This document shows positions 3,232-21,712 of a stretch of DNA of 21,712 nt, one piece after another (within the stretch, counting starts at the first letter, position 1; the number at the start of each line of letters is the position of its first letter). This DNA comes from a virus. Made by a program: the position numbers and the translations under genes. The stretch is taken from positions 1 to 21,712 of IMG/VR virus record IMGVR_UViG_3300007345_000331; one strand, written 5' to 3'. The notes under the pieces were generated by a model. It ran no database searches and was not told where the DNA came from. It was given only the letters and a program-made list of their open reading frames with translations.

Positions 3232-3509
3232 ACGACCGGCTTGCCTTCGAGCTGCCTGATCCGCATCTCGCAGTAACGCATGGCCTTACGCCAATCAGTT
3301 ATTTCTGACTGCACGGCATCCATATTCTCATACAGCTTGAAGCCCGCCCGCGCGGAATACTTTGCGACGGCTCCACGAACGTAATAGCCCTGCGGGTCAT
3401 TGGCCATGATGTACTCGATTGGCTCGATGCCGTTCCGCTCGTTGGCGTAATGATCGGGGTGTTCGATCAGATCGTCACTCGGCTGTGGGCGCCCAAACTC
3501 GATAGTCAT
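3228..3509 (-). CDS. DUF3310 family phage protein
   Basis: 93 residues. The motif HPDHY followed by GIEPIEYI and a later AKYSARAGFK is the signature of DUF3310, a small family common in phages next to replication and recombination genes; its biochemical role is unsettled. I chose the ATG at 3509 because AGGAAG lies 6 nt upstream, although this overlaps the nuclease gene by 35 nt. It is the last gene of the minus-strand recombination operon and ends tail-to-tail with the o-spanin gene, with no terminator hairpin visible between them. Confidence 0.75.
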   Translation of the reverse strand: MTIEFGRPQPSDDLIEHPDHYANERNGIEPIEYIMANDPQGYYVRGAVAKYSARAGFKLYENMDAVQSEITDWRKAMRYCEMRIRQLEGKPVV

Positions 3510-4287
3510 CGCAAACTTCCTGTGCAGTCTCATTCTTGTGGGTGCAGAACCACCGGCCATCGTCCTGTGCGATGCTGTGCTGGCAGGTCGCGCAATCTGT
3601 GTCGGGCTGTCGGCCCTCGCGGCACACGCCCCGCTTGAAGCAAAACTTGCAGCGCCAGTCGTCGGGGTTGTCTGTCACTCTGGGGGCGTGCCCGCCCATC
3701 ACCCGCTCGGCTCGGGCCATCAGCGCGTGAAAGGCGATCTCGTCGAACTCCACGATCTCAGCGTGGTACTCGCTTGTGTCTTTGTTGTAGGCCAGCATCA
3801 CCGCCTTCTCGAAGCCAGCCATCCCCATGTAGGTCTGCATCTGGTCAACGTATTGCGGGTGCGATTTGCCGATCCCATGCTTGACGAAGGCCCGCCACTT
3901 GGAGGCGTTCATGGTTTTGATCTCAAGCAGCGCCAGCTCGCCATCGTCCAGCTCAATCTGGCCGTCGATGTTCCCACGGATGTGGCCTCCGTGCATAGAA
4001 TAAGCGAACTGGCGCCCGGTCACAGGGTCACGGTCTAGGACCGTTAGCTTCGACCGCTTGAGATCCCCGACGATAAGATCTTCGGCTTTATGTCCGAAGC
4101 CAAAGATCCGCTGAAGCTTGGGAGGAGGCTCATCGTCGGGAAAGCCGCGTAGAGAGAATGAAAGCGCGGCATCACAGGGACCGCCGACGTTACTGCCGCC
4201 GATGTAACGGCGTGCCTTCTGGTTGGCCCGAAGGCCAACGAAGCCCTCGTCGATGAGGGTCAGTATGTCGTCGGCGGTCTTTGGCAT
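3475..4287 (-). CDS. Cas4/RecB-like PD-(D/E)XK exonuclease with probable Fe-S cluster
   Basis: 270 residues. The PD-(D/E)XK core is visible as GNIDG (D108), then LEIKT (E122, K124) and a QMQTY helix (about 149-153), as in Cas4 and AddB/RecB-type nucleases. Four cysteines are placed as in the Cas4/AddB iron-sulfur cluster: C38 near the N terminus and C213, C216, C222 after the core. Beyond these, C232, C235, C248 and C259 form a second possible metal-binding knuckle. It probably resects DNA ends to make single strands for the SSB-like protein and the Sak4-like ATPase encoded just upstream. Its start overlaps the SSB stop (TGATG), so the two are coupled. Confidence 0.8.
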   Translation of the reverse strand: MPKTADDILTLIDEGFVGLRANQKARRYIGGSNVGGPCDAALSFSLRGFPDDEPPPKLQRIFGFGHKAEDLIVGDLKRSKLTVLDRDPVTGRQFAYSMHGGHIRGNIDGQIELDDGELALLEIKTMNASKWRAFVKHGIGKSHPQYVDQMQTYMGMAGFEKAVMLAYNKDTSEYHAEIVEFDEIAFHALMARAERVMGGHAPRVTDNPDDWRCKFCFKRGVCREGRQPDTDCATCQHSIAQDDGRWFCTHKNETAQEVCDDYRVWAPTAE

Positions 4288-4769
4288 CAGAACGGGATCG
4301 CGTCGTCAAAGTTCTGGGAGCTGGGGGCGGAAGTGAACGGGTCACTGGCCGGAGCCGGAGCTGGCGCCGGTGCAGGCACGTCCGCATCAGGCGCAAAAAC
4401 GCCCGTGATGTTTTTGTACTGGCCCGTGCTGCCATCGTCCCGGCGGAACGACTTGCCGGGTTCGACCCGGATCGTCACGCGCTTACCCTTGAACCAGCCG
4501 ATGTCGTCCGGGCGGTCAGGGTTGTGGTGGTCGGTGGCGACCAGATACTGCTTGAGGCGCTGCTCACTGATGCGCTTGCCGACCTCGTTGTCGCTGTACA
4601 GGCGCAGCGTGTCGGTCAACGTCCCACCGGAGCCGGACATATCGAGGCTGAGAGCGCCTGTCTGCGCGTCCCAATTGACGTCGGTGATCTCCACCTTGTG
4701 GACGCCAACGCCCAGTCGCGACGACTGGCTTACGTTGGACAGGTCTAGGTCTGAAAATGCGAAACTCAT
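4287..4769 (-). CDS. Phage single-stranded-DNA-binding-like protein (DUF669-like)
   Basis: 160 residues. The N-terminal ~115 residues look like a beta-rich domain with WFKGKRVTIRV. Then comes a Pro/Ala linker of alternating PA (about residues 131-141), and the protein ends in DDAIPF. An acidic tip ending in Pro-Phe is the hallmark of SSB proteins, where it recruits partner enzymes. The body is not a plain Ssb OB-fold by eye and fits the DUF669 group found beside Sak4-type ATPases. The overlap with the gene on each side (ATGA at 4769, TGATG at 4287) fits a coordinated recombination module. Binding to ssDNA is an inference from tail and context. Confidence 0.72.
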   Translation of the reverse strand: MSFAFSDLDLSNVSQSSRLGVGVHKVEITDVNWDAQTGALSLDMSGSGGTLTDTLRLYSDNEVGKRISEQRLKQYLVATDHHNPDRPDDIGWFKGKRVTIRVEPGKSFRRDDGSTGQYKNITGVFAPDADVPAPAPAPAPASDPFTSAPSSQNFDDAIPF

Positions 4770-5515
4770 TTCTTGTCTCCAGTCTGAATTCGCTTGATGA
4801 TCTCAACGATGTTCGACGTCTCTTCGATGGGGCGAGCAACGCCACGCGGGTCACGGACTTTGCCGTGCCACCCCATGATCTCGTCGGTGTAGATGACGCG
4901 CTTCACGACAGGCGCAGAGTTGCCCGACTTTGAAGCGACCTTGGCCCCGGCGAAGACGTTATCGAACAGCGCGGGCACCTTCTTGGACTGCTTCGATCCT
5001 TGGATCTGTGGCCAGTAGTGCGTGACGCCGTTGGCATCCGTCTCTTCTTTGGCCAAGCAGGTAAACAGGATGTGGTAGTCGTTCTGATCGCGCATCATGC
5101 GCAAGCAGCCCTCTACCGCCTTGCCGTAGTCGGCCCATACCTTGAAGGCGTTTTGCTCGCCGTAGAGTTTGTCGAAGTGTTTGTGGATAAGGTCACAAAG
5201 CTCAGTCAGGCTATCAACCATAATCCATTTGTAGCCCTGCTTCTTGAACTCGTCCGAGCGCATCATCTTCAGCAGGTCTTTAAAGGCCAGCCCCTCGCCA
5301 GCTCCTTCTTCCCAGCCCGTGAAGGCGACATAGTCGATCTCCACGTCCTGAAGGCTTTTAAGGCCCGCCTCACCTGAGAAGATAATCCCCTTCCCGTAGG
5401 CCTCGGCGTAATAGCGGGCGGTGTAAGTTTTTCCGAAGCCGTGATGCGCGTACAGCAGCGACTTCGACGGTTCGTCGAGCGCGATGCTGCTGGTACTTCG
5501 AATAGGTAAAGACAT
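4766..5515 (-). CDS. Sak4-like RecA-fold ATPase (phage recombinase, AAA_24-type)
   Basis: 249 residues. Walker A is AHHGFGKT at 23-30, where the usual first Gly is Ala; Walker B is WIMVDS at 97-102, followed by LTELCDLI. A later LFTCLAKEE strand matches the sensor region of Sak4-type single-domain RecA-like phage ATPases, which promote annealing or strand exchange together with a phage SSB. It is the first gene of a four-gene minus-strand operon. An AAAGGAG element lies about 10 nt before the ATG, and a promoter/operator lies further upstream (5540-5579). Alternative: a general phage nucleotide-binding protein of the same fold. Confidence 0.78.
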   Translation of the reverse strand: MSLPIRSTSSIALDEPSKSLLYAHHGFGKTYTARYYAEAYGKGIIFSGEAGLKSLQDVEIDYVAFTGWEEGAGEGLAFKDLLKMMRSDEFKKQGYKWIMVDSLTELCDLIHKHFDKLYGEQNAFKVWADYGKAVEGCLRMMRDQNDYHILFTCLAKEETDANGVTHYWPQIQGSKQSKKVPALFDNVFAGAKVASKSGNSAPVVKRVIYTDEIMGWHGKVRDPRGVARPIEETSNIVEIIKRIQTGDKK

Positions 5516-12133: not shown

Positions 12134-12198
12134 TTGACGAAAATCACTCCACAAGCTACGGCTACAACGGGTTAAATGAATGCAAACATTTTTAACCC
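12134..12198 (+). promoter_or_regulatory. Possible promoter and 30-bp dyad before integrase A
   Basis: TTGACG (12134-12139) is a good -35; the -10 17 nt on (TACGGC) is weak. Downstream, GGGTTAA (12169-12175) and TTAACCC (12192-12198) form a dyad spanning exactly 30 bp, the same span and a similar arm (GKGTYAA) to the operator at 8353, but with GCAA rather than GTAC in the centre. It would lie over the transcription start. Confidence 0.42.
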
Positions 12199-12224
12199 AG
12201 CCATGCCTTACAGGAGATAAACGC

Positions 12225-13322
12225 ATGCCAGCCACGCTACCACCGCATATCCACCAGACCAGAAACGGCACCTTCACCGCCCGTCTCCGTGTCCCCGCCG
12301 ACCTCCAGCCCGTGCTCGGCAAGACCGAGCTGCACAAGTCTCTCCACACTAAGAACCTGCGCGAAGCCAAAGTCTTGGCCCCAACCATCGTCGCCCAGCT
12401 CCGCCACCAACTCGACGAGGCCAAGCTCGCCCCGCACCCCGACCACGGCACCCCAATAGAAGCAGCCGCAGAGTTCCTACCACCCCGCCCCCGCCACAAG
12501 GCCGTGCTGCGCGATCTAATAAATCACACCCGCCTTCAACACGTCGAGTATCTGACCCTCTCCCACTGGCAGCGATGGTGCTACAGCCGGGAAGATTTGC
12601 AGCCCCAACGAACAGTAGCCACCGTCCGCAACGAGACCACGCTCATCCGCTCGGCCATCCTCAAACTGATGGCCTCTCGCCGCCTGCCCTTCGACCGCAA
12701 CCTGCTGACCCACCCCAAGTGGCGAGAAACAACGAAGGCCGAAATCCGCACCCGCCAGCAAGCCAACAGCCCCTACACCCTCGACCGTTGGCAGGAACTC
12801 TACGACGCCATGCCCCGCCGCACTGCCTTCCAGCGGTCCTGCCGAGCTGCCTTTGCCCTTGGTCTCCTCACCGGCGCTCGCATCAGCGAGATCGCCAACA
12901 TGACCACGGCCCAGATCCAAGACAATCTGTGGACGATCCCCCGCAGCAAGACCCTGCACGGCGAGCGAACGATCCCCCTAAACTCATTGGCCCAAGACGT
13001 CATCGCCAGCCTGACCCCAGACCCCGACGGCTTTCTGTTCTCCCGGCGAGACGATGACTGGTCGACCCAAGCCACCCGCTATTCGATGGCCCTAGCTCGC
13101 ACCCTAAAAAAAGCGGGTGCCGCCTCGCATGAAACCATGCACAGCACCCGCTCGACTTTCCGCACGCTCGTCCCTCGCTACGCCAGCTCACCCGAAGGCA
13201 CCATCGACATGCTGATGGGGCACGCCCCACCCAAGCACGTCGCCGCCGCCTACTACCGGGCCAGCCTAGCCGACTGCATCACTTTAATGCGCGCTTACAC
13301 GCCTTCAATCCGTCTGGATTGA
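12225..13322 (+). CDS. Tyrosine recombinase/integrase A
   Basis: 365 residues from ATG 12225, with AGGAG 8 nt upstream. The N terminus (GTFTARLRVPADL, SLHTKNLREAK) is the arm-type and SAM-like region of phage integrases. The catalytic set is complete: R219 (TGARISEI), K242, H306 and R309 (HSTR), H333 (MGH) and Tyr 343 or 344 (AAYYR). It integrates or excises DNA at an att site. It faces opposite to all neighbours to its right and overlaps the convergent gene at 13632 by 44 nt. It is unlike integrase B in length and sequence. Confidence 0.9.
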   Translation: MPATLPPHIHQTRNGTFTARLRVPADLQPVLGKTELHKSLHTKNLREAKVLAPTIVAQLRHQLDEAKLAPHPDHGTPIEAAAEFLPPRPRHKAVLRDLINHTRLQHVEYLTLSHWQRWCYSREDLQPQRTVATVRNETTLIRSAILKLMASRRLPFDRNLLTHPKWRETTKAEIRTRQQANSPYTLDRWQELYDAMPRRTAFQRSCRAAFALGLLTGARISEIANMTTAQIQDNLWTIPRSKTLHGERTIPLNSLAQDVIASLTPDPDGFLFSRRDDDWSTQATRYSMALARTLKKAGAASHETMHSTRSTFRTLVPRYASSPEGTIDMLMGHAPPKHVAAAYYRASLADCITLMRAYTPSIRLD

Positions 13323-13943: not shown

Positions 13944-13971
13944 AGTGTACACTTTTTTAACAGTTCGTCAA
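13944..13971 (-). promoter_or_regulatory. Promoter with operator half-site
   Basis: On the minus strand: -35 TTGACG (13971-13966), 16-nt spacer, -10 TACACT (13949-13944). The spacer holds CTGTTAAAAA and then GTGTAC, the same order and spacing as the operator motif at 5571-5553 and 8353. The second arm of the dyad is absent. A further GTGTACAC lies at the RBS (13909-13916). It should drive the genes at 13907 and 13632. Confidence 0.6.
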
Positions 13972-14423
13972 TTTCCGTTGACCATCAGCCCCGGCTTCAC
14001 CGGCGCAATGAGATGGCGCAGCTCGTCTGTGCCGCCCACCTCAGTCTTGAGCATGTAGTCCTTGCCAAAGCCGCCCGTGGCCGCCAGATAGTCGGCGTCC
14101 TCCGCCGCATCCAAGAACCGCTGGCACATGACCCGCAGCTCCGACTGCCTCGTAACACCAAACTTCTTACCGATCTGCCGCTGGTGCGTCTTTACGGTCT
14201 CCGTCGAGATGCCGCCCATGATTTTGGCGACATCCTCCAACTTCATCCCGTAAACCATCCCCTGCAAGACAGCATGCTGGCGTGGCGTCAGCTTGGTCAG
14301 CTCGGGGATCTCCGCCCCGGCCAGCCCGCCTTTCCCTTTGGCCTCCATACGCAGCACGACCTGCGTCAGCCCCTCCACGGCGAGGCGTAGGCTTTGCAGC
14401 TCCCTTCTAGTCTCGTCGTCCAT
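13968..14423 (-). CDS. LuxR-type HTH regulator
   Basis: 151 residues from ATG 14423 with GAGGAA 7 nt upstream; a longer frame to 14480 would read through the hairpin in the leader. Residues 44-105 match the GerE/LuxR-type HTH: LTPRQHAVLQGMVYGM, then DVAKIM, then STETVKTHQRQIGKKFGVTRQSE. The N terminus is a short coiled helix rather than an autoinducer or receiver domain. It sits in the lysogeny region next to integrase B, so it may control lysogeny or the accessory genes. Confidence 0.75.
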   Translation of the reverse strand: MDDETRRELQSLRLAVEGLTQVVLRMEAKGKGGLAGAEIPELTKLTPRQHAVLQGMVYGMKLEDVAKIMGGISTETVKTHQRQIGKKFGVTRQSELRVMCQRFLDAAEDADYLAATGGFGKDYMLKTEVGGTDELRHLIAPVKPGLMVNGN

Positions 14424-14441
14424 GGTTCGTTCCTCACAGTG

Positions 14442-14499
14442 CCTGTGGGGCGATGTTGCCCCCGCCTCCACAGGTGTCAAAAAACTTTACAGCAGTCAA
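14442..14499 (-). promoter_or_regulatory. Leader hairpin and operator-like site before the LuxR-type gene
   Basis: GTGTCAA (14474-14480) followed after 6 nt by TTAC matches one arm and near-centre of the operator motif, with the other arm missing. On the minus strand TTGACT (14499-14494) could be a -35; its -10 is poor. The leader then holds a hairpin: GGGGC/GCCCC (14447-14451 and 14458-14462) inside CCTGTGG/CCACAGG (14442-14448 and 14468-14474). Confidence 0.45.
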
Positions 14500-14502
14500 T
14501 AG

Positions 14503-14524
14503 ACTTACGTGCTAAAGCGTAAGT
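14503..14524. repeat. 7-bp inverted repeat at the end of integrase B
   Basis: ACTTACG (14503-14509) and CGTAAGT (14518-14524) with an 8-nt loop, spanning the integrase stop codon. No T-run follows on the minus strand, so a terminator is unlikely; an arm or core site for recombination is possible but untested. Confidence 0.4.
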
Positions 14525-15330
14525 ATTGCCTCCCTTCCGTCCTTCGCCGATACATGTGAGTAACGCATCACCATGCTCAGGTTCTTGTGGCCCAGCAAAT
14601 CGGCCACCACCCGCAGGCTCACGCCTTGCCGCACCAGCTCACTCGCGAACGTGTGCCGCGCATCATGCGGCTTGAAGTCCTTCAGCCCCATGCGCACAAC
14701 GTGCGGCCACCACACGCCATAGAACTCACGCTCCCGCCACTTCTGACCTGTTGGCCCCGGGAACACCAGCCCGCCGCCCTCACGGGCGGCCTCTATAAAT
14801 GGCCACAGCCGGTCGTGGATGGGGATCACACGCCAGTGCTCACCCCGCCCACCTTTCAACGAGCGCAGCCGCAACGTCTTCCGCGCGTAGTCCACGGCTT
14901 CTGTCTCCAGCTTCATCAGCTCGCCCTTACGCGCGCCCGTGAAGAACAGTGCCGTCGCTATCGGCTTCAGCTCCTCGGGCGCCTCTGCTAAGAACTGGTC
15001 CCGCTCCTCAACAGTCAGCCACCGTTCCCGCCCTGCATTGTCCCTTGGCCGGTCCAAATACAGCGGCTGATGCCCGTGCATCTTGCGCCAGTAATTCACG
15101 ATGCTCTTGACCGTATTGATCTCCCTGCGCTGGGCCGGGGCGCCTTGGCCCCGGTTCACGTAGTCGGAGATGTCCGATCCCTTGAGATCTAGTATGGGGC
15201 GGTCACCCATCAGCTTGCGAAACTTCTCCGCAAAATAGACGCTGGTCCCGCCAATGCTGCCGTAGCGCAGCTTACTCTTGATCCAGAAGTCGATGGCATC
15301 ATTCACCCGTGGTTTACGTGGCCGCCCCAT
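14512..15330 (-). CDS. Tyrosine recombinase/integrase B
   Basis: 272 residues from ATG 15330, with AAAGGAGG about 7 nt upstream. Catalytic residues are R134 (FTGARKGEL), K159, H222 and R225 (HDAR), H248 (LLGHKN) and Y257 (MRYSHV), the full tyrosine-recombinase set. It is shorter than integrase A and lacks its N-terminal arm, starting directly in the core-binding domain. It is the last of a chain of overlapping minus-strand genes, so it is likely expressed with the small genes upstream of it, unlike the separately promoted integrase A. Confidence 0.9.
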   Translation of the reverse strand: MGRPRKPRVNDAIDFWIKSKLRYGSIGGTSVYFAEKFRKLMGDRPILDLKGSDISDYVNRGQGAPAQRREINTVKSIVNYWRKMHGHQPLYLDRPRDNAGRERWLTVEERDQFLAEAPEELKPIATALFFTGARKGELMKLETEAVDYARKTLRLRSLKGGRGEHWRVIPIHDRLWPFIEAAREGGGLVFPGPTGQKWREREFYGVWWPHVVRMGLKDFKPHDARHTFASELVRQGVSLRVVADLLGHKNLSMVMRYSHVSAKDGREAILTL

Positions 15331-15577
15331 TGGCTCGCCTCCTTTCCTGCATTTGTTTGACCCACGGCCAGTCACTCAAGATGACCTCGCCATACGTCCC
15401 TTCCAGCTCGGCAACGAGGGCCGCCATCTTGTCGGGTGAGCGCATGCTCACCCGCCTTTCTTTGGCCAGCAGCGAGAGCTTCACCCAGAAGCAATCCGGC
15501 CACCAGTTGTCCGTCAGCTTGTACCAGCTCGCCTGAACCCGCACGGCCTGCCGCCGTGGTCTCGTTCGAAAGAACAT
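15314..15577 (-). CDS. Small hypothetical protein, basic
   Basis: 87 residues from ATG 15577, with GGAG 8 nt upstream; a GTG at 15586 overlaps the previous stop (GTGA) and is an alternative start. The N terminus is Arg-rich (RTRPRRQAVRVQ), then WYKLTDNWWPDCFW. It overlaps integrase B by 17 nt, so the two are coupled. I do not recognise the family; an integrase partner is possible from position only. Confidence 0.55.
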   Translation of the reverse strand: MFFRTRPRRQAVRVQASWYKLTDNWWPDCFWVKLSLLAKERRVSMRSPDKMAALVAELEGTYGEVILSDWPWVKQMQERRRANGAAT

Positions 15578-17689: not shown

Positions 17690-17872
17690 TCAGTTGACCG
17701 ACAGCAGCGTGCGGAGGCCATCAATGCCCTCACACAGCTCCAGTTCAGTCGCCTTCCAGAAGGCCTTGTCAGAGACGTCGTCGCTCTCCTCCACCGTGTT
17801 GTCGATGGTGTCAGAAACAAACGCCTCCAGCTTGGTCAGGACGTCGTGCGCCCCGGCAATCGTGGTTGTCAT
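17690..17872 (-). CDS. Small acidic hypothetical protein
   Basis: 60 residues: MTTTIAGAHDVLTKL, an acidic middle (TVEESDDVSDKAF) and a helical end. Start is fixed by the 27-nt junction with CAGGAG directly upstream. No function assigned. Confidence 0.58.
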   Translation of the reverse strand: MTTTIAGAHDVLTKLEAFVSDTIDNTVEESDDVSDKAFWKATELELCEGIDGLRTLLSVN

Positions 17873-17899
17873 GGTTTTCTCCTGCTGTGTGGTTGGTCA
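17873..17899 (-). repeat. Class A gene junction, copy 1
   Basis: Runs from the XRE gene stop (TGA) to the next ATG: CCAACCACACAG then CAGGAG and AAAACC. Confidence 0.8.
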
Positions 17900-18439
17900 G
17901 TCGATGTCTTCGAAGATCTCGAGGCCGCTATCAGCGGCGAAGGCGAGCACCTCTCGGTATTCGCTGAACCCGGCCCAGTAGTCGACGAACGCCTCGGTCG
18001 TCCCGTAGTTGACGGTGCCGTCCGTGTCCCAGACCACTTGGCCCCCGTCCGTGCGGTAGAGGGTCAGCACGTCCCCGCCTGACAGCAGGTACGAGCCGAG
18101 CTTCACGCCCTTGAACCGCAGTGGCACGGCGCCCGCTCGCTTGACAACGTGCCGCTCGCTCTTCGGCGCTTGCTTGTTGTGGTTGGCAATGAACTTGCGC
18201 ACCGCCAGCAAGTTCCGGGTGTGCGGGATGGTCTTGCCTTGCTCCCATCGGTTGACGTTTTTGCTGCCGAGCATCTCGCCCAGTTGTTTCTGGGTGAGGC
18301 CCAGCTCCAGACGGATGCGCTTCAGCTCGACCATCTCCGGCAGCATGACAATCGCAGTCTTTTGCTTCTTCGTGGCCACAACGGGCGCTGGCGCAGGAGC
18401 GCCAGAGCCATTCAGTGCGGTTGCTAGTTCTTTAAACAT
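17897..18439 (-). CDS. XRE-family HTH regulator
   Basis: 180 residues. After an Ala/Pro linker (GSGAPAPAPVV) the XRE domain spans about 33-90: ELKRIRLELGLTQKQLGEML, then KNVNRWEQGKTIP, as in Cro/C1-type proteins. The C-terminal ~80 residues (GGDVLTLYRTDGGQVVWDTDG) are unlike a Peptidase_S24 or sensor domain and are of unknown role. It follows the ArdC-like gene in the same transcript, across a 27-nt class A junction, so it may regulate that unit through the operator at 19357, though several other HTH proteins are candidates. Confidence 0.76.
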   Translation of the reverse strand: MFKELATALNGSGAPAPAPVVATKKQKTAIVMLPEMVELKRIRLELGLTQKQLGEMLGSKNVNRWEQGKTIPHTRNLLAVRKFIANHNKQAPKSERHVVKRAGAVPLRFKGVKLGSYLLSGGDVLTLYRTDGGQVVWDTDGTVNYGTTEAFVDYWAGFSEYREVLAFAADSGLEIFEDID

Positions 18440-18466
18440 AGTCGTAGTCCTTTTCGTGGTTGGTTA
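18440..18466 (-). repeat. Class A gene junction, copy 2
   Basis: From the ArdC gene stop (TAA): TAACCAACCACG, then AAAAGGA and the XRE ATG. The RBS half differs from the other copies. Confidence 0.7.
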
Positions 18467-19342
18467 GGCGGCAAGGCGCTGCTCGGATGCAGCCGCCTCA
18501 GTTTTTAGGAAGGCCACCGCCTCGCTGGCCTTAGTCGCCGCCTGCTGGAGCATCCGGCGATCATTCTTCAGTCCGCGCAGCCAGTGCTCGAGGTAGGCTG
18601 CGTGGCTCTCCGTCTGGACGGGTACGGCGCCCAGCTCTTGCATCAGGAAGGCCGAGCCAAGCTCGGCGATCAGCTCCTCGTAGGCATACTCAGAGCGTCG
18701 GGGGTTGGTGTTCAGCACCCGGTCGAGCCGATGGGTGGCCCCAGTCCAGTGGACATGTTCATGGGCCAGCGTGGCGTAGTAGCTCGCCACCGAGCGGAAG
18801 CGCTCGATGGGCGGCATGACGATCTGGTCACGGCTCGGAATGTAGAAACACTGGCCCTGATCCTGCGTGCTGACGTCGCTACCCGTCGCCGCAAAGAAGT
18901 CTTCCAGTGGCTGCACCGGCGGGTTGTCGAGCAGCTCGTTGGTCAGCTCGAACCTCTTGGGCAAGCCCTCGATCTGGTCGCTGTTCCAGACGGTGTAAGG
19001 CTTGCTGAACTTGTACCAGCCAGCGTCGGGGTCGGCCTGATCGACCGGCGCAGACCCGTAGAAGAAGACATGCGTCCCCTTCCCTTTGCTGCCCTCGACC
19101 AGACGGCCACCCAGCGCAGCCATCTGCTTGAAGGTGAACCACTGCTGGCCCGTCCACCCATGCTTAATAGAGCTGGCCCAGCAGGCCAGAATGTTCAGCC
19201 CCTGATACGGCTCACCGTTGGCCCGCAGCGGCAGGCCACCGGACTGCGCTACCACCGGGTGCTGCCACGGCGGGACGCCCTGCTCCATCAGCTTGATGAT
19301 CTGGTTGGTCAGGTCGTTGTAGATTTCTGTTGAACGGCTCAT
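18464..19342 (-). CDS. ArdC-like antirestriction protein with metallopeptidase domain
   Basis: 292 residues. The N-terminal half (YNDLTNQIIKLMEQGVPPWQHP, LPLRANGEPYQGLNIL, KGKGTHVFFYG) is the ArdC/TraC-type ssDNA-binding domain. The C-terminal half carries the zincin motif HEHVH at 194-198 with YEELIAELGSAFL downstream supplying the third ligand region. ArdC proteins protect incoming DNA from restriction in the recipient. It is the first gene after a terminator and an operator/promoter, with GCAGGAG before the ATG. Length matches the family. Confidence 0.88.
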   Translation of the reverse strand: MSRSTEIYNDLTNQIIKLMEQGVPPWQHPVVAQSGGLPLRANGEPYQGLNILACWASSIKHGWTGQQWFTFKQMAALGGRLVEGSKGKGTHVFFYGSAPVDQADPDAGWYKFSKPYTVWNSDQIEGLPKRFELTNELLDNPPVQPLEDFFAATGSDVSTQDQGQCFYIPSRDQIVMPPIERFRSVASYYATLAHEHVHWTGATHRLDRVLNTNPRRSEYAYEELIAELGSAFLMQELGAVPVQTESHAAYLEHWLRGLKNDRRMLQQAATKASEAVAFLKTEAAASEQRLAA

Positions 19343-19356
19343 CTAGCATTCTCCTG

Positions 19357-19404
19357 CTGCTAAAAAGGTGTATCTATTTTTGACAGTTTTCCCCCCAACG
19401 TCAA
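19357..19404 (-). promoter_or_regulatory. Promoter with 30-bp dyad operator for the ArdC-like gene
   Basis: On the minus strand: -35 TTGACG (19404-19399) and a 17-nt spacer to AAAAAT (19381-19376). The dyad CTGTCAA (19386-19380), central ATAC (19373-19370) and TTAGCAG (19363-19357) spans exactly 30 bp, as at 8353. It covers the likely -10 and start point, so repression is expected. The -35 sits one helical turn farther from the arm than at 5574 and 13966. Confidence 0.58.
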
Positions 19405-19412
19405 GGGGGAAT

Positions 19413-19436
19413 AAAAAAGGCCCGCCGAAGCGAGCC
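19413..19436 (-). terminator. Rho-independent terminator
   Basis: On the minus strand GGCTCGC pairs with GCGGGCC (one G-T pair) around a TTCG loop (19436-19419), followed by six T (19418-19413). It ends the transcript of the acidic protein gene and isolates the ArdC promoter. Confidence 0.88.
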
Positions 19437-19462
19437 TGTCTGGGGTGGTTGGTGGGGTGCGG

Positions 19463-19750
19463 TCAGTCGTCGTCTTCGTCCTCTTCTTCGTCTTCGTACT
19501 CTTCGATTGGCTCGACGCTTTCGATCTCGACGAGGTCTTCCTGCACCTCCCCGATGTCGGCGCTGTCGATGGTGATCTCCGACCCGTGCCTGCCGACGTG
19601 GCTCACGCCCGACATGTCGCCGACATCCTCGGGCACGCACTCAGAAAAGATCTTCCGGGCCTCGTCTTCGTCGTCGGCCTCGATCTCCATGATGATCTCA
19701 AGATCGACGGTCGCACTGCAATTCGTGCGGATGGTGTACTTGGCAGTCAT
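19463..19750 (-). CDS. Acidic hypothetical protein
   Basis: 95 residues, very acidic, with a tail of almost only Glu and Asp (EEYEDEEEDEDDD). The N terminus is a strand (YTIRTNCSATVDLEIIMEIEA) followed by the helix DDEDEARKIF, similar in plan to the protein at 16270. The tail resembles DNA-mimic or anti-restriction proteins, but that is only a resemblance. Last gene before a terminator. Confidence 0.6.
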   Translation of the reverse strand: MTAKYTIRTNCSATVDLEIIMEIEADDEDEARKIFSECVPEDVGDMSGVSHVGRHGSEITIDSADIGEVQEDLVEIESVEPIEEYEDEEEDEDDD

Positions 19751-19777
19751 TGGGTAATCTCCTGTGTGGTTGGTTTA
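19751..19777 (-). repeat. Class A gene junction, copy 3
   Basis: From the TAA stop of the gene at 20053: AACCAACCACACAGGAGATT then ACCCA and ATG. Confidence 0.85.
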
Positions 19778-20053
19778 GTAAATGTCCAGCTCGCCACGTT
19801 CTTCACGCTCGCGCAGACGCACCTCGGCCTTGAACCTGTCGAAGTTGAAGCCGCTGTTACGTGCAGCGGCCAGCGCCTCAAGGGCGTGGGCAAGGTCTTG
19901 GCCAGCCTCGTAAAAGTCGAAGTGATCGTCTGGCCCGGTGATGTGGGCCTCGATGAACGCCGGTACGTCTGGCCCACGGTCAGGGTAGGCATAGAGCGCA
20001 GCGTCGTGCCCCTCTTCCCAAGTCTCCCAATGGATCATCAAGCGGTCTAGCAT
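19775..20053 (-). CDS. Small hypothetical protein
   Basis: 92 residues from ATG 20053, with CACAGGAG 8 nt upstream. Rich in His, Asp and aromatic residues at the N terminus (IHWETWEEGHDAALYAY), then a helix with AHALEALAAARNSG and a charged end. It overlaps the upstream gene by 7 nt. Not recognised. Confidence 0.6.
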   Translation of the reverse strand: MLDRLMIHWETWEEGHDAALYAYPDRGPDVPAFIEAHITGPDDHFDFYEAGQDLAHALEALAAARNSGFNFDRFKAEVRLREREERGELDIY

Positions 20054-20301
20054 TCTGCATTCTCCTGTGTCAGTGCGTTAACTGTGGCCCGTGCGCTGCT
20101 GATGAGGCCAAAGTAGCGGTCGTCAAACCAGCCCACGCCATCGGCATAGAACTCGGCGTCGCTCAGCAACTCGGGGATGGCTGGGTCTTTGCGGTGGACC
20201 CAGTAGTGGCGGCGCGTGCTGCGCCATATCTTGGGCGTGTCGAGATCACGCTCGGCGTGATCGTCGAGGAACGCCCGTGGGATACGGACTAGGTTGTGCA
20301 T
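20047..20301 (-). CDS. Small hypothetical protein
   Basis: 84 residues from ATG 20301, fixed by the class A junction. MHNLVRIPRAFLDDH, then RSTRRHYWVHRKDP and DGVGWFDDRYFGL. Basic and aromatic-rich centre; not recognised. The longer frame to 20511 is antisense shadow of the next gene. Confidence 0.6.
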   Translation of the reverse strand: MHNLVRIPRAFLDDHAERDLDTPKIWRSTRRHYWVHRKDPAIPELLSDAEFYADGVGWFDDRYFGLISSARATVNALTQENAEC

Positions 20302-20327
20302 GCTGCAATCTCCTGTGTGGTTGGTTA
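20302..20327 (-). repeat. Class A gene junction, copy 4
   Basis: From the TAA stop of the gene at 20798: CCAACCACACAGGAGATTGC then AGC and ATG. Confidence 0.85.
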
Positions 20328-20798
20328 GCTGTAGTGAGGGCGGGTCTTGGGCCAGCCCGTGGTGTCTTGGTCGAAGTGGATGGCAAGGTGGAAGTCCGTC
20401 TCCGTCGTGCGGTCCTCGTTGTAGACCTCCTCCAGCTCCTCCTTGAGCGCGATGGCCTCCGCCAACGTCGTGCGGAACCAGTGGTCTCGTGGCTGGCCGT
20501 AGTCGTACCACCAGCCGCCTTCCTCGGGTCCGCCGTAGGCCTGACCGACCTCGTACATCTGCACGACGAAGCCACGCTCGAGGCGCTCAGTCAGGCGGTC
20601 GATGAACGCTTGCGCCAGCGCCCATGGCTGGCTGCCTCGCTTGCAGTCGTCGGGGAAGAGAACCTCGCCCTCCTCGCCTGTGTCGTAGTCAAGGTCGAAG
20701 TCCACCACCTCGTAACGGAGCTGGCCGTTGTCGAGGAGCTGAATGGCGAAGTTGGTGGTGATTGGCCCGATTGTTATCTGGGGGAAAAAGGTTGTCAT
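20325..20798 (-). CDS. Hypothetical protein, acidic and aromatic
   Basis: 157 residues. Starts with beta-like segments (TFFPQITIGPITTNFAIQLL), an acidic DFDLDYDTGEEGEV stretch, then ERGFVVQMYEVGQAYGG and GGWWYDYGQ. No signal peptide: cytoplasmic by eye. Not recognised; possibly another small accessory or anti-host protein. Confidence 0.6.
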   Translation of the reverse strand: MTTFFPQITIGPITTNFAIQLLDNGQLRYEVVDFDLDYDTGEEGEVLFPDDCKRGSQPWALAQAFIDRLTERLERGFVVQMYEVGQAYGGPEEGGWWYDYGQPRDHWFRTTLAEAIALKEELEEVYNEDRTTETDFHLAIHFDQDTTGWPKTRPHYS

Positions 20799-20825
20799 AG
20801 GTGTAAACTCCTGTGTGGTTGGTTA
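20799..20825 (-). repeat. Class A gene junction, copy 5
   Basis: From the TAA stop of the gene at 21242: CCAACCACACAGGAG then TTTACACCT and ATG. Confidence 0.85.
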
Positions 20826-21242
20826 TACGTGCAGTTCTTCGCACATGAACGTGTCTTTGACCTCTCGCTCGAGGGTTTCCTCCTCCTCCCAGTCTTGCCC
20901 CCACGGGTCTTCGTTGGCCCTCTCCAGCGCTAGATCCTCGGCCTCCCGCATGGTGGACGCCTCGACGATGACCTCGGTCGTGAAGTGGACGAGACATTCC
21001 TGATTGACGCCCACCTTCCACTTGCGGACAGGCGGCCACTGCGGCTCCTTGTCCTCGTCCTGCTCAAGCGCTGAGCAGATCTCCCGTTGGCCTTGGATGG
21101 CCGCCGTGCAGATGCTGTGTGTTTGCGGCGTCAAGCCAATGCCCTTGGCCTCCTCGCAGATCTTGGCGAGCGTGTGCCAAGTATCGACCAACTGCTCTGC
21201 CATGCAGTCAAACTGTTCTTCGGTCAGGTCTTCGTAGTTCAT
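20823..21242 (-). CDS. Hypothetical protein, acidic
   Basis: 139 residues from ATG 21242, with CCAACCACAGGAG upstream. NYEDLTEEQFDCMAEQL, a helical middle, then a strand-helix part (NQECLVHFTTEVIVEASTMREAEDLAL) and an acidic end (WEEEETLEREVKDTF). The TTEVIVEASTMREAEDLAL segment again follows the strand-then-helix plan of the proteins at 19750 and 16270. Unknown function. Confidence 0.6.
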   Translation of the reverse strand: MNYEDLTEEQFDCMAEQLVDTWHTLAKICEEAKGIGLTPQTHSICTAAIQGQREICSALEQDEDKEPQWPPVRKWKVGVNQECLVHFTTEVIVEASTMREAEDLALERANEDPWGQDWEEEETLEREVKDTFMCEELHV

Positions 21243-21279
21243 GTTTTTCTCCTGTGGTTGGTGGTGGAGCGTCTGCTCC

Positions 21280-21303
21280 AAAAGGCCCGCCACTCGGGCG
21301 GGC
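21280..21303 (-). terminator. Probable weak terminator
   Basis: On the minus strand GCCCGCC (21303-21297) pairs with GGCGGGC (21291-21285), followed by GC-rich CC-TTTT (four T). A small second hairpin (GGAGC/GCTCC) follows. It sits 38 nt before the next ATG, too close for a separate promoter, so it may attenuate rather than end transcription. Confidence 0.5.
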
Positions 21304-21328
21304 AAGTTGGAGAAGACTGGTTGGTTGG

Positions 21329-21712
21329 TTAGTGCTTGCCGTAGCTCACGTTGGGCACGGACTTGTCCCAGCACGCACGGCAGTCGCCGCAGTAGCCGTA
21401 CTTGCGGCCCTTGCCTCGTCGGGTGGTGAGGTACTCATCCAGCGACACGACCTCGTAACTGCCGTCATCGTGCAGCCGGGTGCGGTAGGCCCCGCACTCC
21501 TTGCCGTGTGCCGTGCCGCCCTTGTAGACGGGGGTGTGAACCGTGCTGGTGGTGGCGTGGCTGGCGATTGGCCCGTCGTCGATCATCGTGCTGCTGATGC
21601 GGATGGTCAGGTTGTCAGGCTCGGGGCCGTGCAACTCACGGCACTCCTTCACGATCTTGGCCTCCCGTGTGGGCAGCCAGTGCTTGATCTCCGGCGTCAT
21701 GCGCGCCACCCG
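21329..21712 (-). CDS. Cys-containing hypothetical protein (5' end may lie outside window)
   Basis: The frame is open to the window edge. ATG 21700 gives about 123 residues but has no clear RBS, so the gene may start upstream. It has ECRELHG, then GKECGAYRTRL and a C-terminal YCGDCRACWDKSV (CxxCxxC), suggesting metal binding. Its stop is followed by TAACCAACCAACC, the first half of a class A junction, then the terminator at 21280. Not recognised. Confidence 0.55.
   Translation of the reverse strand, partial: RVARMTPEIKHWLPTREAKIVKECRELHGPEPDNLTIRISSTMIDDGPIASHATTSTVHTPVYKGGTAHGKECGAYRTRLHDDGSYEVVSLDEYLTTRRGKGRKYGYCGDCRACWDKSVPNVSYGKH

Follow-up and report, generated by a model that had tools for sequence, protein, structure and literature searches.

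A short repeat fused to stop codons recurs at the gene junctions of an accessory operon in CRP-810-like phages

Our analysis describes a single short repeat that a group of uncultured phages, recovered as contigs, places again and again between the genes of one accessory operon. The window, that is, the whole 21,712-base stretch of DNA analyzed here, is the entire IMG/VR virus record IMGVR_UViG_3300007345_000331, and the operon, which is read on the minus strand, makes up its right third. There a stop codon, TAACCAACCAC and a ribosome-binding site follow one another in a layout that is reused between many unrelated genes, and the same element occurs in the same operon of five related records (G001, G002, G012, L322 and L384). 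We infer from these comparisons that the element is a lineage-specific, cis-acting junction that works at the RNA level in translation of the accessory operon and that has secondarily become an exchangeable gene boundary, a reading to which we give an even chance of being correct.

The core of the element, ACCAACCAC, is present in seven exact copies in the window, against a mean of 0.02 in shuffled sequence. All seven are on the transcribed minus strand, and all are intergenic, within the non-coding 6.4% of the operon. A longer 19-mer, TAACCAACCACACAGGAGA, is found four times with up to three mismatches, versus no occurrence in 100 shuffles. A first-pass annotation of this DNA had described five junctions between unrelated genes (class A; genes as in Table 1) as near-identical and of almost equal length. 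Their coordinates and lengths hold, at 26-27 nucleotides (nt) up to the ATG and 29-30 nt from the stop codon through the ATG, whereas the near-identity extends to three of the five, which match the 19-mer with zero or one mismatch (20309, 20807 and 19758). The junction from ArdC to the helix-turn-helix (HTH) gene, TAACCAACCACGAAAAGGA, and that from the HTH gene to c7, TGACCAACCACACAGCAGGAG, share only the 5' half of the 19-mer, and common to all five is a TAA or TGA with ACCAACCAC directly after it. The partial copies placed by the same annotation at 20054, 21243 and 21314 are real, the first being degenerate, the second a good copy, and the third running into a hairpin; a further copy, between the g5 stop codon and a terminator, was absent from its list. 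The TAA of the degenerate copy is not in frame, and translation of g3 continues across the ribosome-binding site of g4 to end in a TAG that overlaps the g4 start (20047-20053).

Across our four main records, the window, G001, G002 and G012, the element stands at 25 gene junctions. The downstream start is ATG in every case, and the upstream stop is TAA in 22 of the 25, compared with 6/28 elsewhere (p = 1e-6). The gap measures 22-30 nt at 18 of these junctions, and the longer gaps mostly contain terminators or hairpins. The core is found 29 times on the transcribed strand of the four operon regions and 0 times on the opposite strand, and it is absent from the virion region of the window. Variation is seen in the number of ACCA units (two or three) and in the link from the repeat to the Shine-Dalgarno sequence (CACAGGAG, CACACAGGAG, CACACAAGGA, CGAAAAGGA and others). 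The spacer between the Shine-Dalgarno sequence and the ATG is specific to the gene that follows, such that g2 has TTTACACC[T/C]ATG in 4/4 phages despite a different upstream neighbor in G012. The core additionally occurs between stop codons and terminator-like hairpins, in the window (behind g5 and at 21266-21331), in G001 after g5, in G002 both before and after GP88, and in G012 before GP88, which indicates that the element is more than the context of a Shine-Dalgarno sequence.

The relatives form a small set of six records, the window included, of which four are well separated. A scan of viral contigs with CCAACCACACAGGAG gave 74 contigs, only two of which, L065 (G001, 41 kb) and L010 (G002, 8.5 kb), hold several exact copies; L078 (G012) was taken from the same list by a wider count, and two further scans added L322, which is nearly identical to G001, and L384, a close relative of G012. 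Genes of the relatives were called with a simple script of our own in place of a trained gene finder. G001 and the window are syntenic, and most of their proteins are about 50-80% identical. At the g1-g2 and g4-g5 junctions the element is kept between these two phages and differs by an ACCA unit or an edge base only, in a setting where the flanking proteins are 45-60% identical and four-fold sites 46-65% identical. In G002, in which the DNA of g1 and g2 is 99% identical to that of the window, the bases around the copy before g1 differ and ACCAACCACAGGAG is unchanged. Junctions with unchanged neighbors thus keep the repeat despite heavy synonymous divergence, which calls for either a function or continuing homogenization. 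The earlier suggestion that conservation exceeds what a Shine-Dalgarno sequence needs is therefore well founded, as ACCAACCAC is kept at orthologous junctions of diverged phages.

In the mechanism that we propose, a temperate, CRP-810-like phage group would reuse one junction throughout one accessory operon, with each copy providing the upstream TAA stop, a single-stranded tract of A and C only, a Shine-Dalgarno sequence, a short gene-specific spacer and the ATG. The A/C tract would consist of ACCA units (ACCAACCA, with three units in some copies) and then CAC or CACAC. Its most likely role would be that of a landing or re-initiation leader, at which ribosomes end one gene and start the next 22-30 nt on, and this standard leader would be independent of the identity of the neighboring genes. 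A side effect, supported by the comparisons below, would be that genes, and even a hairpin module, could be swapped between copies with their expression intact. Several observations weigh against this reading. The predicted accessibility of the Shine-Dalgarno sequence is 0.43 with the element, 0.48 with the element randomized and 0.42 in genes without it, and since folding with and without the element gives no difference, an unstructured leader that exposes the Shine-Dalgarno sequence is unsupported. Copies between stop codons and hairpins have no ribosome-binding site directly behind them, and the sequence-exact conservation appears to exceed the needs of any A/C-rich leader, leaving room for a trans-acting factor. 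Two related ideas were set aside. Pairing of CCAACC with the GGUUGG of 16S rRNA helix h45 was dropped on general reasoning, as the order in the mRNA is unfit for continuous pairing. A leader convention of the hosts was rejected because the pattern ACCAACCACN{0,6}AGGAGN{4,9}ATG, across 754 genomes, occurs at control level in alphaproteobacteria (3 in 385 genomes; backwards control 3) and slightly above it in gammaproteobacteria (13 in 369 genomes; control 4).

Genes that neighbor these junctions appear often to have been swapped. Three different genes follow g2, each behind the same repeat (g3 in the window, a gene of 64 amino acids (aa) in G001, and MTNYCYC in G012), and g2 itself is preceded by g1 or, in G012, by an unrelated 58-aa gene (z). 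GP88 is followed by the hairpin and g1 or by z, and MMI by three different neighbors. The window has ArdC where G001 has CobS and CobT (30137-33428), and in both the downstream border, before the HTH gene, is the repeat; the CobS-CobT pair stands at the ArdC place in G001 and in the isolate CRP-810. In several comparisons one neighbor is conserved and the other replaced, with identity changing inside the repeat, and what starts behind z and its repeat in L384 differs from what does so in G012. The end of the G002 contig coincides exactly with the 3' end of a repeat, which is what a point of divergence between strains would produce, and that of the L384 contig lies 13 nt past one. A recombination kit is encoded as well, namely an AAA protein (4766-5515) whose relatives are annotated as Sak4-like single-stranded DNA annealing proteins and a YqaJ-type nuclease (3475-4287), and exchange by way of these two proteins is plausible. 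These same observations, along with the hairpin module before g1, which is flanked by repeats while G001 and G012 have a plain repeat at each corresponding junction, favor an explanation in which the repeat persists chiefly because it offers short homology (17-22 nt) for cassette exchange by the Sak4-like protein and the nuclease, its part in ribosome binding being incidental. This is the stronger of the two main rivals to our reading, but we consider it unlikely, as the repeat is also kept between unchanged neighbors and as other breakpoints lie elsewhere. L384 lacks two small genes that G001 and G012 have, and in comparison with L214 (G012) neither loss is joined repeat to repeat; the loss of gene 15 is joined at an AGGA microhomology and that of gene 14 has one end inside coding sequence. 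In a tally with hand-assigned classes, the element is present at 10/14 variable and 4/9 conserved boundaries, an excess that is not significant (p = 0.38). The cassette exchange suggested in the first-pass annotation is partly supported by the places where identity changes inside the repeat, the idea that breakpoints fall exclusively at repeats is not upheld, and homology as the cause of exchange is putative. Lambdoid phages carry short conserved boundary or linker sequences between genes that have been proposed to guide modular exchange; these differ from boundary to boundary, whereas here one sequence is used at many boundaries of one operon.

The nine core bases are kept exactly, to a degree that a Shine-Dalgarno sequence would not require, and they occur on a single strand and in places other than ribosome-binding sites; the element is moreover predicted to be single-stranded in the two junctions that were folded (0.78-0.95 unpaired). 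This would fit an operator at which a phage-encoded trans regulator, an RNA-binding protein or a small RNA, controls all genes of the operon together, in the manner of T4 RegA, which controls many early genes. This second main rival we judge to be less likely still, because no RNA that bears the complement and is conserved across the phages was found, no Rfam match is present in the window, and no candidate RNA-binding protein was found among the genes tested; a small RNA with a complementary seed was rejected in particular, the copies of GGTTGGT and GTGGTTG being scattered with none conserved. An extension of the same idea, a shade less probable again, is that ACCAACCAC is the site of an RNA-level regulator of the phage that would switch the whole accessory operon, with the hairpin module as part of the same control and with genes gained between repeats joining the regulon automatically. 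It is also conceivable that nothing specific is at work, in that A/C-rich leaders are common before Shine-Dalgarno sequences and the copies are relics of recent leader duplication. In an unbiased set of viral contigs, an A/C-only tract before AGGAG leads on to a spaced ATG in 8/14 cases, so that such tracts often mark true starts. Several (ACCA)n-AGGAG leaders also stand before ATG in unrelated or distant viral contigs (L294, L287, L326/L271, L278, L245, L330, L244 and L219), which are possibly convergent and, having been found by motif search, weak as evidence. A leaning towards leaders of this kind may extend beyond this group. Recent relics would nevertheless be hard to reconcile with conservation across relatives whose synonymous sites have strongly diverged and with the same nine bases recurring 29 times in four operons, such that this explanation is very improbable. 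The least probable in our view is a DNA-level site of the kind at which a repressor halts transcription, asymmetric and placed in the gaps between genes, as with the stoperators of Cluster A mycobacteriophages such as L5 (mentioned in PMC3203893). The asymmetry, the single orientation relative to transcription, the short gaps and the presence of an HTH regulator in the operon are all shared features or would fit such a site. Stoperators act in the regulation of transcription, whereas the copies here are rare away from gene junctions, have a fixed relation to the upstream stop codon and/or the Shine-Dalgarno sequence, and lack dyad symmetry; moreover, a DNA site would have no reason to provide a stop codon.

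The hairpin module lies before g1 in the window and G002, with the repeat on both flanks, and before another gene in G001, G012, L384 and L322, where a plain repeat is found at the GP88 or g1 side. Its form, CTTCTCCAACTTGCC-stem-CTTTTGGAGCAGAYGCTCC, was located at 36.7 kb in G001, 5.1 kb in G012 and 1.7 kb in L384, and among the viral contigs it is seen in this phage group only. Changes in the inner stem are compensated (C-G to A-T and C-G to G-C), and the outer stem CTCCAA:TTGGAG is mutually exclusive with an alternative hairpin, GGAGC:GCTCC, in an attenuator-like arrangement.

Table 1. Copies of the element, the hairpin module and genes of the accessory operon in the window.
Feature	Position	Strand	Remark
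GP88 family gene, truncated at contig end	21329..21709	-	Pfam PF17338
Element behind GP88 stop codon, TAACCAACCAACCAGTC, running into hairpin module	21315..21331	-	
Hairpin module GTCTTCTCCAACTTGCC-stem-GGCCTTTTGGAGCAGACGCTCC	21266..21317	-	Kept in five relatives, before two different genes
Good element copy before g1, behind hairpin, ACCACCAACCACAGGAGAAAAACATG	21240..21265	-	
g1, 139 aa, no known family	20823..21242	-	46% identical to G001 gene 17
Class A junction g1 to g2, TAACCAACCACACAGGAGTTTACACCTATG	20796..20825	-	Same junction in G001, G002 and, after a different upstream gene, G012
g2, 157 aa, phrog_7302-like, function unknown	20325..20798	-	
Class A junction g2 to g3, TAACCAACCACACAGGAGATTGCAGCATG	20299..20327	-	G001, G012: different gene after same repeat behind g2
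g3, 84 aa	20047..20301	-	No homologue found in relatives; other genes instead in G001, G012
Degenerate copy before g4, GTTAACGCACTGACACAGGAGAATGCAGAATG	20051..20082	-	Read as coding by g3
g4, 92 aa	19775..20053	-	59% identical to G001 homologue
Class A junction g4 to g5, TAAACCAACCACACAGGAGATTACCCAATG	19748..19777	-	Orthologous junction in G001
g5, 95 aa	19463..19750	-	G001 homologue
g5 stop codon, CGCACCCCACCAACCACCCC, terminator hairpin with T-run	19410..19465	-	Element before terminator, not ribosome-binding site
ArdC-like antirestriction protein (ArdcN + MPTase-PolyVal)	18464..19342	-	At place of CobS-CobT in G001
Class A variant, ArdC to HTH, TAACCAACCACGAAAAGGACTACGACTATG	18437..18466	-	
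HTH regulator	17897..18439	-	
Class A variant, HTH to c7, TGACCAACCACACAGCAGGAGAAAACCATG	17870..17899	-	
c7, 60 aa, unknown	17690..17872	-	

Downstream of these genes the window holds a second class of junction, GGAGGCAGCGTGATG, in which the Shine-Dalgarno sequence, stop and start are fused; its four exact copies (17165, 16716, 16282 and 16064, minus strand) precede four successive genes without homologues in G001. Elsewhere, two genes for tyrosine recombinases (integrases) lie close together on opposite strands (12180-13322, plus; 14512-15375, minus), both kept in G001, and a LuxR/GerE-type regulator without a recognized sensor domain (13968-14480, minus) is kept in G001 and CRP-810.

The family of the carrier phage is likely that of the CRP-810-type phages (PMC11288001), in agreement with the AAA protein, the PD-(D/E)XK nuclease and the synteny that we find. 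Roseobacter phage CRP-810 is the nearest isolate, with identities to the window of 50% for the AAA protein, 44% for the nuclease, 33% for a virion protein, 28% for the primase and 35% for the integrase, and with a terminase to which that of G001 is 49% identical. The AAA protein, PD-(D/E)XK nuclease, primase-polymerase, LuxR regulator, integrase and virion proteins are common to the window, G001 and CRP-810. CobS and CobT, which nearly all CRP-810-type phages carry (PMC11288001), are shared by G001 and CRP-810, with ArdC at that place in the window, which is a fragment. CRP-810 is without ACCAACCAC, and the repeat is limited to a small, GC-richer group. The case that would speak against the annotation's proposal, gene order kept and the repeat absent, is accordingly seen only at a distance, CRP-810 keeping the CobS-CobT order without it. 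The repeat is missing from the other relatives of the AAA and nuclease genes of the window, and the longest of those examined show no homologues of the operon genes and are hence uninformative. DNA searches of phage and plasmid records for close isolates returned short, unrelated matches only, and when bacterial genomes were scanned with protein as the guide, only relatives of the nuclease at 30-37% came up, so that no host was identified.

The closest known system is the start-associated sequences (SAS) of Cluster K mycobacteriophages (Pope et al. 2011, PMC3203893), a likeness that had been remarked upon from the sequence alone and that agrees in position, in orientation, in restriction to non-structural genes and in conservation beyond the Shine-Dalgarno sequence. 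Both are short asymmetric repeats around the Shine-Dalgarno sequence that stand in one orientation before many unrelated non-structural genes, favor ATG, and are conserved beyond rRNA pairing with function unknown; some SAS are accompanied upstream by a second motif (ESAS), just as some of the junctions here are by the hairpin module. The element behaves like an SAS but is not one. The 13-bp consensus GGGATAGGAGCCC, with up to two deviations, is not matched by ACCAACCAC followed by a variable part and AGGAG, of which only AGGAG is common to both. SAS end 3-7 nt from the start and mostly follow gaps of >50 bp, whereas in the present element the conserved half comes before the Shine-Dalgarno sequence and adjoins the upstream stop codon, the gaps are mostly shorter, and the core is also found before terminators. 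ESAS hold putative promoters (PMC11373665), which the hairpin here does not resemble.

The purpose of phage start-associated repeats has been open since 2011. The element reported here is related to SAS neither in sequence nor by phage family and follows the same placement rules, with the addition of fusion to the stop codon, use before terminators and a paired hairpin module. This suggests that standard gene junctions for accessory operons evolve time and again in phages, and it offers a second system in which to ask what such junctions are for, be it translation, co-regulation or gene exchange.

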